A program made the position numbers and the translations under genes. Shown here one piece after another: positions 16,563 through 24,903 of a DNA stretch of 48,559 nt. Source of the DNA: Terriglobia bacterium (GTDB lineage Bacteria > Acidobacteriota > Terriglobia > UBA7540); contig JAIQGH010000012.1 in NCBI GenBank assembly GCA_020072655.1, positions 1 through 48,559 on the forward strand. The letters run 5' to 3'. Within the stretch, counting starts at the first letter, position 1. Every line of letters begins with the position of its first letter. Below the pieces are notes generated by a model that was not told the origin of the DNA, did no database searches, and worked only from the letters and a program-made list of their open reading frames with translations.

Positions 16563-17447
16563 GTGGGAACCTTGACCTTCGAGAAGTTCTTTTCCGACCA
16601 TCGCAAGCGCTTGGAGGCCATGCACGCGTCTTCGGGCGCAACGACTTGGTCCGTCTCGCTCGACGAACTGGCCCGGGTGGTGTGGGAAGGCATGAGCGCC
16701 GCCACCGAGGCCGGAAATATCCCCGAACTCCTGCAGAAGATTCGTGCTGACGAACTAGCCCTGGTCATTGCCTGTGTCAAAGGAGATAGCCGGGCCTGGG
16801 AAGCCTTCAGCTTTGGCTATCGCGGCGCGATCTATGAGGCGGCGTGCTCGTTTGCGCCGGATCTGACCGCGGCCCGGGAGCTTTCCGACTCTTTGACGGC
16901 GGAACTCTACGGGGTGGAGGCGGAAGGCGGCATGGCGCGCTCGAAACTGAGGTACTTCCACGGTCGGAGCAGCTTGCGGACCTGGTTGCGCGCCGTCGTC
17001 TACCAAAAATTCGTGGATGAGTACCGGCGGCTGAGCCGGCTGGCGCCCCTTCCGGATGACCTCGAGGCCCCGGCGGGCAGCAAGGCCGTCTCGGAGCGGG
17101 AGGAGCACCGCTACGCCAAACTGCTTGGCGAGGCAGTCGCGGTGGTGCTGCGGGAACTTCCCGGCGCCGAGAAAATGTTGCTCAGCTTCCATTATGTACA
17201 GCAACTCACCATGAAGCAGATTGGCAGGCTCGTCGGGGCGCACGAATCCACCGTTTCCCGGCGACTGGATGGGGTGAATAAGAAGTTGCGCAAGCAAATT
17301 GAAAACTACCTCCGCAAGGTCAAGAAACTGAATGCGTTCGAGGTCGATCAATGCTTTGACTTTGTTGCCCGCGGCGCCCTCGTGGACCTGGAAAAGGAAT
17401 TGAAGCGCGAAAAGCTTCCGCAAGAAAGCACGGGCAGTTCGTTCTAA
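16563..17447 (+). CDS. ECF-like RNA polymerase sigma factor with N-terminal extension
   Basis: A sigma-70 family protein of 294 residues. Sigma2 lies around residues 70-160 (WEAFSFGYRGAIYEAA … SLRTWLRAVVYQKFVDEYRR), and sigma4 around 195-245 with the helix-turn-helix LTMKQIGRLVGAHESTVSRRL. There is an N-terminal extension of about 60 residues and a short C-terminal tail, longer than minimal ECF sigmas. The start is GTG at 16563. The next gene (45 nt downstream) encodes a membrane protein with an HxxxCxxC anti-sigma motif, so the two form a regulatory pair in which the anti-sigma probably holds this factor at the membrane. Target genes are unknown. Confidence 0.8.
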   Translation: MGTLTFEKFFSDHRKRLEAMHASSGATTWSVSLDELARVVWEGMSAATEAGNIPELLQKIRADELALVIACVKGDSRAWEAFSFGYRGAIYEAACSFAPDLTAARELSDSLTAELYGVEAEGGMARSKLRYFHGRSSLRTWLRAVVYQKFVDEYRRLSRLAPLPDDLEAPAGSKAVSEREEHRYAKLLGEAVAVVLRELPGAEKMLLSFHYVQQLTMKQIGRLVGAHESTVSRRLDGVNKKLRKQIENYLRKVKKLNAFEVDQCFDFVARGALVDLEKELKREKLPQESTGSSF

Positions 17448-17492: not shown

Positions 17493-18701
17493 ATGAGTCA
17501 TATGAAGCCCATTGACAATCCGGCGACCGACAAAGGGTTAGGGAAGATCATCCGGGGAAAGCTGCAGGAGCAGCTCCGGGTCGAGCCGTCCGGGTGTCCC
17601 GAGGCTGAAACTCTCGCTGCCTATTTCGAACGCTCGCTTTCTCCCAGCGAGCGGATGGCTTGCGAGACCCACTTTATGACCTGCTCTCGCTGCCAGCTTT
17701 TCGTCGCCGAACTTGCTCGGTTGAGCGAAGCGGACGAGCCCCGTACGGTCGTGGGAGACGTCGAGATTGAGAGTGAGCCAGAAACCGGATGGGCTTTTCG
17801 TCTCGTTTGGGTTGCTCCAGTCCTTGTCGTCTTAATCATCGGCGGCGTCTGGTACCGCGAGAAAATCCGCGATTACCTTCGGCCGCCAGAGCAGGCCGCC
17901 ATGGAGGAGCCGGCCCCGACTACAACGGCTCCCGTCGCAGGGGGAGAAAAGGGCAAGGCGAAGACCGTCGGTGCGCCCGTAACAAGTCCTGCCGAGGCGA
18001 TGGCCAATCAGGCTGGTACGGAACAGAAGCAGCAGGCTGCGGGGGTCCCCGCGAACGCTCCAGGGTCAGCAGAAGGGCAGCCAAGTGCCGGAGTCCAGAT
18101 TTCGGTTGCCGGCACGGCTTCCAAGTCCACCCAGGGGCGCGGGGCAGGAGCAGCGGCTGCACCTGAGGCCGAGACTCGGGTGCTGCAGATTCCCGCTGGG
18201 GGCCCCCCGGCGGAGGTCGCTGACCGCACGCTCGCCGCAGCAGTACCGGCACCCGGGGCCAGGGCCGCCGTGACCGGCGTGCCAGAGAGTGTCCCCACAT
18301 CAGAGCGAGAAGCTGTTGCGAAGGCGTCGACGCTGACCAACTACACGATCGAGGGGTACACCCCGGCCTACCACGCGAAGTGGCGGGTCGGCCGAGGCGG
18401 ACTGATTCAGCAGCAGGTGCCCGACCGCGGCTGGGTTGATATCGCCAGCGGTGTCCAGGCCGACCTCTTCGACATCACCTTTGCAAGCCCCGCCATCGGA
18501 TGGGTCGTCGGGCATGAAGGCACCGTACTCAGAACGACCGACGGCGGCGCCACCTGGAACAGGGTCTCCAGCCCCACCAACGAAGACTTGGTCCGCGTCA
18601 GCGCCCTCGGCGACCAGAAAGCTCAGGTCATCACGCGCTCCGGCAAAACTTTCGGCACCGACGATGGCGGCAGATCCTGGAAGCCGATCAGCGCGCCGTA
18701 A
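17493..18701 (+). CDS. Membrane anti-sigma factor with C-terminal YCF48-like domain
   Basis: A 402-residue modular protein. The N-terminal cytoplasmic part carries the zinc anti-sigma motif His60-x3-Cys64-x2-Cys67 (ETHFMTCSRCQLF). One transmembrane helix lies at about 102-121 (LVWVAPVLVVLIIGGVWY). A long Ala/Pro/Gly-rich linker of roughly 160 residues follows, then about 110 residues of YCF48/photosystem assembly-like propeller sequence (IGWVVGHEGTVLRTTDGGATW, then SGKTFGTDDGGRSWKP). It follows the sigma gene by 45 nt. I infer that the extracytoplasmic blade-like domain senses a ligand or envelope state and controls release of the sigma factor. The YCF48 label reflects fold similarity, not photosynthesis. 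Confidence 0.82.
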   Translation: MSHMKPIDNPATDKGLGKIIRGKLQEQLRVEPSGCPEAETLAAYFERSLSPSERMACETHFMTCSRCQLFVAELARLSEADEPRTVVGDVEIESEPETGWAFRLVWVAPVLVVLIIGGVWYREKIRDYLRPPEQAAMEEPAPTTTAPVAGGEKGKAKTVGAPVTSPAEAMANQAGTEQKQQAAGVPANAPGSAEGQPSAGVQISVAGTASKSTQGRGAGAAAAPEAETRVLQIPAGGPPAEVADRTLAAAVPAPGARAAVTGVPESVPTSEREAVAKASTLTNYTIEGYTPAYHAKWRVGRGGLIQQQVPDRGWVDIASGVQADLFDITFASPAIGWVVGHEGTVLRTTDGGATWNRVSSPTNEDLVRVSALGDQKAQVITRSGKTFGTDDGGRSWKPISAP

Positions 18702-18918: not shown

Positions 18919-20352
18919 ATGCCTGCTCACACCGATCTTTACGGCCGATGGGCGCACGAAGTGCGGCGCAGCGGACTCCTCCGCAGCGGCGAGCGTGTGG
19001 GAGTGGCTGTATCCGGCGGGCCTGACTCCGTGTTACTACTGGAGTTTACGAAGGCCCTCGCCGGCAAGATGGGCTTGGTGGCCTCCGCCGTGCATTTCAA
19101 TCATCAACTGCGCGGCTCTGAATCGGACGCGGACGAGCAGTTTGTGCGCGACTTGGCCGGGCGTCTCGGTGTGGCGTTCCTTGGCGGTGAGGCCGACGTC
19201 GCCCGCGTGGCGAGAGAGAAGCATCGGAACCTGGAAGCCACGGCGCGAGAGCTCCGGTATCGGTTCTTCTTTTCTCTGATTCGCCGCGGCCAGCTCGACA
19301 AGGTCGCCACGGCACACACCGCCAACGATCAGGCCGAAACGGTCCTTCTGCGGATCTTGCGCGGCACCGGCACACGCGGCCTGGGCGGGATCTATCCAAC
19401 GCTCGAAGGGAGAATCGTTCGGCCGTTCCTCGGCCTTACGCGTGCCGAGATCGAGGCGGAAGTCGCTCGCCGCAGTCTTCCTTTCCGCGTCGATTCCACG
19501 AATCTCGAAACTCGCCTCCGGCGCAACAAGGTTCGCCGGGAATTGCTTCCCTGGCTGCAGAGAGAATTCAATCCGGACTTGATTCCGCTGCTCGGCGAGT
19601 TCGCTGATCGCAGCCGCGATGACGAGGAGTATCTGGAAGAGCAGGCCCGCGAGCGGGCGCGACCCTGGCGCGGGCGCGAGGGCCAGGAGGAAAGGATTCC
19701 AGCGCGGGCTTTGGCGGAACTTCCCCGCGCGCTCGTGCGGCGCGTTCTTCGTCAAATGATTCTGGCGGCGCGGGGGTCGCTTCTCGGCACCTCACACCGC
19801 CACATCGAGGCCCTGCGGCGGTTTGCGACTGACGCACAAAGCGGGCGGACGCTTGCCCTTCCTGGGAATCTCGTGGCCCGTCGGGAGTTCGAGTGGCTAG
19901 TGATCGGCGTGGCTTCGGCTCCGACGGAGAACCACGATTTCTCTTTTCATCTCACCCCTCCTGCGGAGGTTACCGTTCCTCAGCTGGGCGTCCGCCTTGA
20001 GTTCAAAATTGTTGGGCGGGAAGAAGTTGGAAAGGCGTATAATAAGCGGCGAGTTGGCTTGGACCCACTCAAGCTGGCGGGAGAGTTGCTCCTGCGCAAC
20101 TGGGGGTGGGGAGATCGTTTTTGTCCGTTGGGGTTCCGCAAGTCGCGGAAGCTTAAGGAGTTGTTCCGGCAAATGAAAATCCCCCTTGGACAGCGCGGCG
20201 CTTGGCCGGTTCTGGAAAGCGGGAAAGAGATTGTCTGGGTCCGAGGCCTGCCGGTGGCAGCTTCGGTGGCTGCTTCCCCTGACGCCGAGAGGGTTCTGAC
20301 AATTGTGGAAAGCCCCGGCGGGAGCGTTTCCAGGCGTGTGGAGCCGCGATGA
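18919..20352 (+). CDS. tilS: tRNA(Ile)-lysidine synthetase
   Basis: TilS converts the wobble C34 of tRNA-Ile(CAU) to lysidine using lysine and ATP, changing its decoding from Met to Ile. It is essential in most bacteria. The 477-residue product has the PP-loop SGGPDS at 32-37, the HFNHQLRG segment, TAHTANDQAETVLLR, the FRVDSTNLETRLRRNKVRRELLP signature region, and a C-terminal domain with WGWGDRFCPLG. The stop overlaps the hpt start as ATGA (20349-20352). The tilS-hpt-ftsH order is widely conserved in bacteria. In Bacillus and Listeria, TilS and HprT are reported to form a complex affecting ftsH expression. Confidence 0.95.
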   Translation: MPAHTDLYGRWAHEVRRSGLLRSGERVGVAVSGGPDSVLLLEFTKALAGKMGLVASAVHFNHQLRGSESDADEQFVRDLAGRLGVAFLGGEADVARVAREKHRNLEATARELRYRFFFSLIRRGQLDKVATAHTANDQAETVLLRILRGTGTRGLGGIYPTLEGRIVRPFLGLTRAEIEAEVARRSLPFRVDSTNLETRLRRNKVRRELLPWLQREFNPDLIPLLGEFADRSRDDEEYLEEQARERARPWRGREGQEERIPARALAELPRALVRRVLRQMILAARGSLLGTSHRHIEALRRFATDAQSGRTLALPGNLVARREFEWLVIGVASAPTENHDFSFHLTPPAEVTVPQLGVRLEFKIVGREEVGKAYNKRRVGLDPLKLAGELLLRNWGWGDRFCPLGFRKSRKLKELFRQMKIPLGQRGAWPVLESGKEIVWVRGLPVAASVAASPDAERVLTIVESPGGSVSRRVEPR

Positions 20353-20945
20353 AGAAATCTACCAAGCCCGTAGCTCGAAAATCACCTCCCGGGAACGCTC
20401 GTAAGTCGCCTGCCGACAACCACCTGCGGCCGGTGATTTCGACACCGCAGATCCAGAAACGCCTGCGCGAGTTGGCTGGCCAAATCAATCGCGACTATCG
20501 TGGCAAAACGCTCCACGTGGTCGGAGTGTTGGAGAACGCTTTCGTTTTCATGGCCGACCTCATCCGCGCGCTGAAAATGCCGGTCTACTGTGATTTCGTG
20601 CGGGCCGACATCCGCGACACATCCCAGGGCGGAATCGCCACGCGAGAGATCACGTACACTCCGCGCGTGGAGGCGGCGGGCAAGGACATCCTGCTCGTCG
20701 AGGGCATCCTACAATCCGGCATGACGATGGATCACCTCTACCGGTATCTGCTCGGTCAGAATCCGACCTCGGTGCGCACGGTTTGTCTGATCGAGAAGAC
20801 CGACGAGCGGAAAGTGGACGTGCCCACGGACTATGTCGGATTTCGAGCCACGGGGAAATTTCTGGTCGGCTACGGCCTGGGCTACGAGGGCCGATTCAAG
20901 AACTTGCCGTACGTCGCCGCCGTGCCCTCCACCCCCCGGCGATGA
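20349..20945 (+). CDS. hpt: Hypoxanthine phosphoribosyltransferase homologue with degenerate active site
   Basis: 198 residues with clear type I phosphoribosyltransferase similarity to Hpt/HprT along the whole length (VFMADLIRALKMPVYCDFV, then KVDVPTDYVGF and KNLPYV). The residues that make the enzyme work are altered. The pyrophosphate loop LKG reads LEN (61-63). The PRPP motif usually ED-x2-D-[ST]-G reads VEGILQSG (117-124), so the second acidic residue is Gly119 and the catalytic-base Asp is Gln122. The late Asp that binds metal in GYxLDY is Gly178. The N-terminus has a 25-residue basic extension. It is translationally coupled to tilS and precedes ftsH. It is probably not a normal salvage enzyme; a scaffold or regulatory role with TilS is my inference. 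Confidence 0.85.
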   Translation: MKKSTKPVARKSPPGNARKSPADNHLRPVISTPQIQKRLRELAGQINRDYRGKTLHVVGVLENAFVFMADLIRALKMPVYCDFVRADIRDTSQGGIATREITYTPRVEAAGKDILLVEGILQSGMTMDHLYRYLLGQNPTSVRTVCLIEKTDERKVDVPTDYVGFRATGKFLVGYGLGYEGRFKNLPYVAAVPSTPRR

Positions 20946-21012
20946 CGAGGAGTCGCTTTGCCGCATCTAAGAAGGGGAGGCTCTCGACGGAACCCGGCAG
21001 GGAGGAAGTGCA

Positions 21013-22920
<1,908 letters not shown>

Positions 22921-22945: not shown

Positions 22946-24790
22946 TCAGTGGAGTTTTTTGCCCGTAGCAACGTCCCAAACCCTGATCGTTCTGGCGTAG
23001 CCGGCGGCAGCCACCTGTTTGCCATTCGGACTGAATGCTACCGTGGTATACGGCTGGTCGTCTTGGTTGAGCGTGCGCACGCACTGCTCATCTTCGACCC
23101 GCCATATTTTCACTGTATTGTCGTCGCTTGCCGACGCAAGTAGGATCCCGTCTGGACTAAACGTGACATGATTCACTGCATCCTTATGCCCCTCAAGCCT
23201 GTGGACCTCCTCCCCCGTGCCAGCATCCCAGATCTTGATGACTTTGTCGTATCCCGCAGATGCGAGCCAAGGGAGCTTCGGGGCGAATGCAACAGTAGTC
23301 ACCTCGTCGGCGTGAACATGGATAATGCGCTGTGCCTCGCCCGCGCCGATTCTCCAAAGCCTCACGGTTTCGTCTGCGCTCCCCGTGGCGAGTAATTTGC
23401 CATCGGGCGAAACCGCAATCTCATCTATGGCATCATCGTGGGCCTTGAAGGTTAGCAGCTTCTTTCCGCTGCTAGGGTCCCAATTCGTTACATCTCCGCA
23501 GCCTCCGGCTGAGACCAGAAGTGCGCCGTCTGGCGTAAAGGTAAGGCTTGTGACTCTGCCTTGAGGCATAATCCGTGGCTGTAACTCTTGACCCTTTTGG
23601 ACGTCCCAAATCCTGATCGACCTGTCTACCCCCCCTGAGGCAAGCCGTCGGCCGTCGGGACTGAAGGCCAACGCCAACACAGCACGAGTATGACCAATGA
23701 GTGTACGGACTAGCTTGCCCGATGCAGCGTCCCAGAGTTTGACGGTCTTGTCCTCGCTCCCTGAAGCAATAAGCAGCCCCTCATGGCTAAAAGCTACGCA
23801 ATTGACGGGCCCTGTATGACGCATCGGTTCCTCACGCCCACGGAAGGACAATAGTGCGACGAGAGAGCCAACCGCAACCGCGAAAGAAACGAGCGCAAGC
23901 CATCGCAAGCGTGCGACCTTGCGGGGCTGGCCTGGGCTGCGAGGCCCTGGGGGAGAGGGTGCGGAGCGGGCTGGTTCGATACTTTGATCCAGCCCTCTTT
24001 CAAGTTCATCTATGCTCTGATAGCGCTTAGCAGGGCTTTTTTCGAGACACTTCAGAATTACCCCTTCCAACCCGACCGGCAAAGTCGGCTCGAGGTCGCG
24101 GGGCCGAATTGGGTTCTCATGGATTTGCTTCACGAGCACCGTGACAGGCGTTTCGCCGTCAAATGCCCGGGTGCCTGTGAACATTTCATAGAGGACGAGC
24201 CCGAACGCGTAAATATCTGATCGCTGATCGGCACGTCCCCCCTCAGCCTGTTCAGGCGCCATGTAGGCAGGGGTTCCAACGATGGCGGTCGTGGTGGCTC
24301 CCGCCTCCACGGGCCTTGCGATTCCAAAGTCCATGATCTTGGCGTTTCCCGAAGCGTCCACCATGACGTTTTGAGGCTTTAGGTCACGGTGGATAACACC
24401 CTGAGCGTGGGCCTCGCGTAACCCAGCGCAAACCTGACGGGCAATCTCGATCCCCTTCCTAAAGCTGAGGGTGCCAAACCTGTTCAAGATCGAGCGAAGA
24501 GTCTCGCCCTCCACAAGTTCCATAGAGATGTAGGCCGTCCCGCCGACACGGCTGAATTCGTAGATGCGGCAAACATTCCTATGCGTGATCTTCCGGGCCA
24601 TTCGGAGTTCGGTCTTGAAGCGATCAACAGACGCGGCGTCGGCGGAAATTTCTGGCTTGAGAACCTTTACTGCGACGAGTTCTCCGGTTTCTCGGTCGCG
24701 CGCCCTGTATACAATACCCATGCCTCCGCGCCCGAGCTCCTCAGAAATCTCGTACCGCGCGTCAACACCTGATCCCATTTGCTCGGGCAT
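22946..24790 (-). CDS. Serine/threonine protein kinase with C-terminal WD40 propeller
   Basis: A 614-residue Hanks-type receptor-like kinase. The N-terminal kinase domain (about 12-270) has the glycine loop LGRGGMGIVY, VAVKVLK (ATP lysine), catalytic HRDLKPQN, DFGIARP, and GTPAYMAPEQ. A Pro-rich linker leads to one membrane helix (WLALVSFAVAVGSLVALLSF), then seven WD40 repeats (about 325-614), enough for one closed propeller. All active-site residues are present, so it is probably active, with the propeller outside the cytoplasm as sensor or docking surface. The start is ATG 24790 with GAAGGTG upstream; GTG 24799 is an alternative. It is opposite to its neighbours, visibly less G/C-rich than them, and bracketed by a 41-bp repeat of the ftsH end, all suggesting insertion. 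Confidence 0.92.
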   Translation of the reverse strand: MPEQMGSGVDARYEISEELGRGGMGIVYRARDRETGELVAVKVLKPEISADAASVDRFKTELRMARKITHRNVCRIYEFSRVGGTAYISMELVEGETLRSILNRFGTLSFRKGIEIARQVCAGLREAHAQGVIHRDLKPQNVMVDASGNAKIMDFGIARPVEAGATTTAIVGTPAYMAPEQAEGGRADQRSDIYAFGLVLYEMFTGTRAFDGETPVTVLVKQIHENPIRPRDLEPTLPVGLEGVILKCLEKSPAKRYQSIDELERGLDQSIEPARSAPSPPGPRSPGQPRKVARLRWLALVSFAVAVGSLVALLSFRGREEPMRHTGPVNCVAFSHEGLLIASGSEDKTVKLWDAASGKLVRTLIGHTRAVLALAFSPDGRRLASGGVDRSIRIWDVQKGQELQPRIMPQGRVTSLTFTPDGALLVSAGGCGDVTNWDPSSGKKLLTFKAHDDAIDEIAVSPDGKLLATGSADETVRLWRIGAGEAQRIIHVHADEVTTVAFAPKLPWLASAGYDKVIKIWDAGTGEEVHRLEGHKDAVNHVTFSPDGILLASASDDNTVKIWRVEDEQCVRTLNQDDQPYTTVAFSPNGKQVAAAGYARTIRVWDVATGKKLH

Positions 24791-24903
24791 TGGAGGCACC
24801 TTCGATTACAGGAATACTACCACTGTGGGGCGCACGCCAGAAGATGTAACAAGGTCGGAATTACCACGTGGAGGTCGATTCAAGGAACGCGTCCAGCGGA
24901 CAT

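Follow-up and report, generated by a model that had tools for sequence, protein, structure and literature searches.

An altered hpt-like gene between tilS and ftsH

The window, that is, the whole 48,559-nucleotide stretch of Terriglobia bacterium DNA that was analysed (contig JAIQGH010000012.1), carries three consecutive genes on its forward strand: tilS (18919–20352), encoding tRNA(Ile) lysidine synthetase (TIGR02432, 165 bits), an hpt-like gene (20349–20945) and ftsH (21013–22920; TIGR01241, 876 bits). The hpt-like gene overlaps tilS by 4 nt (ATGA) and its stop lies 67 nt before the ftsH start, so that both the coupling to tilS and the adjacency to ftsH on which the original prediction was built are present. 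The product of the gene is a 198-residue Hpt-like protein, a tilS-linked paralogue and a likely pseudoenzyme, in which PF00156 is the only domain detected. It narrowly misses the equivalog cut-off of TIGR01203 (149.1 against 150 bits); several sister copies score above it (e.g. 158.7 bits in genome G009 and 157.8 bits in G004).

The protein matches T. tengcongensis HGPRT (1r3u) with a phmmer E-value of 4e-36, and its core is about 35% identical to solved HPRTs. Its AlphaFold2 model has a mean pLDDT of 83.9 and is placed among HPRTs by Foldseek and VIA-align 2, the latter giving a Z of 25.4 and an rmsd of 1.7 across 164 residues for 3ohp, and a Z of about 25 for solved HPRTs in general. The predicted retention of the fold is borne out by these values. 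The exception is a basic N-terminal tail (residues 1–26, net charge +6; 20349–20426), which is modelled with low confidence and without secondary structure, and which is found only in the window's bacterial family.

The three motif changes that drew attention to the gene occur together. In the pyrophosphate loop (loop I), LEN replaces LKG at residues 61–63 (20529–20537). In the PRPP loop, VEGILQSGMT (20697–20726) aligns with V(E/D)DIxDTGxT: the acidic pair retains one glutamate as E118, D134 is replaced by Gly119 and D137 by Gln122, and the phosphate-binding S-G-x-T is kept. Further downstream, Gly178 (20880–20882) takes the place of D193, turning GYGLD into GYGLG. The PRPP-loop pattern (E/D)DxxD, which reads EGILQ here, is found in none of the 20 copies from the window's family.

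Conservation of the substitutions

We assembled 130 Hpt sequences from relatives, named genome contigs and the phylum, extracted them with their neighbouring genes and set outlying loci aside. The 63 unlinked copies are all canonical (E133 63/63, D134 63/63, D137 62/63, D193 63/63). The linked lineage, nearly all of whose members lie beside tilS and/or ftsH, comprises 17 copies in which the acidic motif is complete and 50 altered copies, the latter lacking one or more of E133, D134 and D137; intact copies number 80 in total. Asp at D134 is found in all 17 intact linked copies versus none of the 37 linked copies from Terriglobia, and in the window's family neither D134 nor D137 is Asp in any of 20 copies. 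The alignment with Hpt proteins of the same phylum, proposed as a check, shows the substitutions to be conserved, and their recurrence in many genomes excludes chance and sequencing or assembly error as their source. Loss of E133 alone among the three acidic residues is seen in 2 of the 50 altered copies (L074 and L079). Several altered linked copies of other classes keep D137, and such copies outside Terriglobia may be active.

The residues lining the remainder of the pocket have been retained. Within the window's family G139 and S/T138 are conserved in 20/20 copies, T141 in 19/20, K165 in 18/20, and the aromatic residue at 186 and Arg/Lys199 in 20/20; the protein of the window itself has the 5'-phosphate loop S/T-G-x-T, Lys165, the aromatic 186 and Arg/Lys199. 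Altered copies have also acquired conserved residues of their own: Cys81 is fixed in 48 of the 50 versus 4 of the 80 intact copies, and E/D62 (36/37 in Terriglobia), P105, R99 and E153 are newly conserved as well. The basic tail occurs in all 17 members of the window's family with a definable start, with a length of 23–31 residues and a net charge of +4 to +11, and is short and near-neutral in most other linked copies. Comparison with a same-genus relative gives a dN of 0.093 and a dS of 1.09 (dN/dS about 0.09), or 0.068 and 1.14 for the core only. These values suggest that the gene is under purifying selection, as a conserved family and not one in decay.

Two individual features of the alignment may be recorded. 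The copy from a sister genome (L020, G003) has an apparent short internal repeat directly before the PRPP loop (AAGKNLLLAGKDLLLVDG). Two altered copies of the linked lineage from family f40 (L077 in G097 and L082 in G086) read VGGILDTG and GYGLG and carry Cys81. A survey of the open-access literature yielded nothing relevant on this Hpt family or on hpt and tilS in Acidobacteriota.

Two paralogues and probable repeated loss

In a quick, unrooted Hpt tree built with the catalytic columns removed, one branch splits the linked from the unlinked copies (SH-aLRT 96). The sequences point to two old hpt paralogues in Acidobacteriota, of which the altered gene is the one linked to tilS and ftsH. We used an FtsH tree, with duplicate contigs left out, as a proxy for species relationships. 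On this tree 4 changes are needed between the intact and altered states and 7 to account for absence of the gene, and therefore motif loss and gene loss have each probably happened more than once. Several relatives have lost the gene by deletion, so that its role is dispensable over evolution. In nine relatives tilS is followed immediately by ftsH, hpt being absent.

The genome of the window does contain the second, intact hpt that was proposed as something to look for. It lies unlinked on contig C138 (30305–30793), shows 41% identity to the tilS-linked protein, scores 201.6 bits and has LKG, VVEDILDTG and VGYGLDY. Of 36 entries with an altered linked copy, 28 come from genomes that have a second HGPRT, versus 3 of the 16 entries in which the linked copy is unaltered (Fisher p = 1e-4, relatedness ignored); the FtsH tree offers too few independent pairs for this association to be confirmed.

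Catalytic state of the linked protein

The alignment makes it likely that the tilS-linked protein has lost useful HPRT activity. D134→G and K68→E carry the case, because the other motif changes are reportedly tolerated or vary elsewhere. The side chains of Glu99 and Asp100 in B. anthracis Hpt-1 contact ppGpp (PMC6783271), and by analogy D134→G would remove one of two ligand-contacting acidic residues. Read from the alignment, K68→E reverses the charge at a pyrophosphate-loop position. The remaining changes are less telling. T. thermophilus HGPRT (3acb) has LNG at the LKG site, and the Gly178 change, although present as described, is not diagnostic alone, since Hpts L061–L066 also have GYGLG, with the acidic pair and the later Asp in place. 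Loop II has likewise lost its Ser-Tyr pair; we dropped this loss as a sign of inactivity because many intact linked copies also lack the pair. There is no shifted Asp in the PRPP loop that could stand in for the catalytic one: the nearest, D128, sits in the following helix and was rejected as a substitute, being common in intact copies too.

Replacement of the presumed catalytic base by Gln does not decide the matter. The title of PDB entry 1i0i (T. cruzi HPRT) names a glutamine mutant of an invariant aspartic acid, and the linked protein scores slightly higher against it than against the wild type (77.7 vs 75.4 bits), as fits its Gln aligning with Gln122. In the T. cruzi enzyme, Gln and Glu at the D137-equivalent position reportedly support catalysis (Canyuk et al. 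2001). The original description of the protein as catalytically dead is therefore sound as a likelihood based on D134→G and K68→E, and is weakened where it draws on loss of the base to Gln and on two motifs that vary in canonical HPRTs.

A reportedly functional Gln variant leaves room for the view that the protein is still a phosphoribosyltransferase, slow or acting on another base, with E118 and Gln122 replacing the usual acidic residues. Retention of the base and 5'-phosphate pockets agrees with it, as does the presence of the altered copy only in G006 (98% complete) and G009 (95% complete). Against this, the acidic pair is a general signature of type I phosphoribosyltransferases, and D134 has been lost in 37 of 37 linked Terriglobia copies as opposed to 0 of 80 intact ones; the loop I Lys is replaced by an acidic residue in 36 of these 37, and in 0 of the 80. 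We consider continued catalysis unlikely.

The ftsH promoter region and the TilS-HprT question

Activation of ftsH in B. subtilis is reported to involve a TilS-HprT complex that binds two inverted repeats (reviewed in PMC8152036). The linked protein might accordingly owe its retention specifically to the HprT role in such a complex, with catalysis discarded, as the original prediction had it. The B. subtilis precedent at ftsH lends weight to this idea, and so does the preservation of the tilS-hpt-ftsH order and of the ATGA coupling in most of the sampled relatives. It is harder to reconcile with the nine relatives that retain tilS and ftsH without the gene, and with the two altered f40 copies, for which neither tilS nor ftsH was detected in the flanking sequence examined. 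The 67-nt gap between hpt and ftsH contains no inverted repeat, the B. subtilis sites sharing no consensus to search by, and a scan for sigma-70 promoters and terminators gave nothing of note, with no sigma-70 promoter before ftsH.

The gap does contain a conserved promoter-like element, GCATCTAA (20963–20970), 42 nt upstream of the ftsH start. Upstream of ftsH, 7 or all 8 of its bases are matched in 18 of 20 loci with the hpt-like gene and in 8 of 9 without it; in this respect the element is independent of the gene. The element occurs 30 times in this genome, versus 68 for a reversed control, and also precedes lon (L185), htpX (L203), trxA (L205) and a superoxide dismutase gene (L192). Upstream of htpX, 16 of 17 family genomes have it with at least 7 of the 8 bases matching (shuffle expectation 0.7), and 9 of 18 have it upstream of trxA (expectation 0.9); at several htpX loci GGAAC or TGAAC lies about 16 nt before it. 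In sequence it resembles an extracytoplasmic-function (ECF) sigma promoter, and the genes that it precedes are a candidate ECF-sigma stress regulon of Acidobacteriota. Such an element offers a putative means of controlling ftsH without the Hpt-like protein, and is compatible with a TilS-Hpt role. Given these observations, we regard retention specifically for a TilS-HprT complex as improbable.

Other features of the window may also be noted. A further copy of GCATCTAA is located near purF (1475–1482). Just upstream of tilS lies a gene for a sigma-70 region 4 protein (16563–17447), followed by one whose product matches zf-HC2 weakly and contains a Ycf48-like region (17493–18701). The two form a possible sigma/anti-sigma pair, and the former might be the putative factor for GCATCTAA. 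A gene for a serine/threonine protein kinase fused to WD40 repeats (22946–24799, reverse strand) is convergent with ftsH.

A proposed binding pseudoenzyme

The reading that we favour, and hold on balance to be probable from the alignments, is that the linked Hpt-like protein performs no useful IMP or GMP synthesis and has a binding or regulatory function instead, holding a purine nucleotide that it does not turn over. In many soil Acidobacteriota, of the Terriglobia and some other classes, the linked copy has lost the residues that deal with the ribose and metal of PRPP and with pyrophosphate, through changes of D134 to Gly or Ala, of K68 to Glu or Asp, and usually of D137 and D193 too. The unlinked copy, having kept all catalytic residues, would usually do the chemistry. 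With its HPRT fold, 5'-phosphate loop (S/T-G-x-T), purine-contacting Lys165, aromatic 186 and Arg199, the linked protein could hold a purine nucleotide in the retained pocket, and in the window's family the basic tail may make contact with a partner or with nucleic acid. PRPP or ppGpp might be disfavoured by E62 of the pyrophosphate loop, and the ligand could be neither of these nor a purine nucleotide.

The linked protein could instead form a hetero-oligomer with the intact Hpt and, as a subunit without catalysis of its own, modulate it in the way that HisZ modulates HisG. HPRTs are dimers or tetramers (PMC6783271), and both copies are present in 11 of the 25 genomes of the window's family. 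The altered copy only is found in 4 of these genomes, the intact copy only in 7 and neither in 3, a co-occurrence that is random (Fisher p = 1) within the limits set by incomplete genomes. The random co-occurrence and the altered copy alone in G006 and G009 led us to reject an obligate heteromer with the intact Hpt, and modulation of this kind is very improbable. That the gene is decaying towards loss is the least credible explanation, being already contradicted by uninterrupted reading frames, a low dN/dS, residues that have become newly fixed and a conserved pocket, in spite of the loss of the gene in several related lineages.

As a tentative suggestion, catalysis may have been lost more than once across the phylum, with the nucleotide pocket kept and new residues fixed, giving a new class of purine-sensing phosphoribosyltransferase pseudoenzymes through which purine status would be coupled to lysidine modification of tRNA or to proteolysis at the membrane. 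If the protein is inactive, it provides a natural separation-of-function variant for asking whether the reported Hpt-TilS partnership at ftsH is independent of catalysis, and, in addition to PurR, a further case of a phosphoribosyltransferase pocket kept without its chemistry. Annotation and metabolic models of Acidobacteriota may also credit purine salvage to proteins that are probably incapable of it, because some of the altered genes, such as those of G009 and G004, pass the 150-bit HPRT threshold.

Comparison with known systems

Bacterial Hpt enzymes (TIGR01203), such as B. anthracis Hpt-1 and T. tengcongensis HGPRT, share with the linked protein the fold, the 5'-phosphate loop, Lys165, Phe186 and Arg199, whereas D134, D137, D193 and the Lys of LKG are missing from the latter, which scores just under the family cut-off. 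The B. subtilis TilS-HprT system has the same tilS-hpt-ftsH order and overlapping tilS and hpt genes; its HprT is an active enzyme, in contrast to the copy in the window, which lacks the catalytic residues and an inverted repeat in the gap before ftsH. Vertebrate PRTFDC1 is likewise a divergent HPRT paralogue beside an active HPRT, with an enzymatic role that is not established (PMC3144895), but it is of separate origin and has no linkage to tilS or ftsH. In Bacillus PurR, a phosphoribosyltransferase domain has no enzymatic activity and senses PRPP and ppGpp (PMC8789054). PurR has, fused to this domain, a winged helix that binds DNA, and it is no HPRT paralogue from a tilS-ftsH cluster; no N-terminal winged helix was found in the linked protein, which has PF00156 only and, in residues 1–26, a basic tail without predicted secondary structure. 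The likeness lies in a phosphoribosyltransferase domain kept without enzymatic activity for ligand sensing, which for the linked protein is our proposal, and by this analogy PurR would be the nearest precedent for a binding pseudoenzyme.
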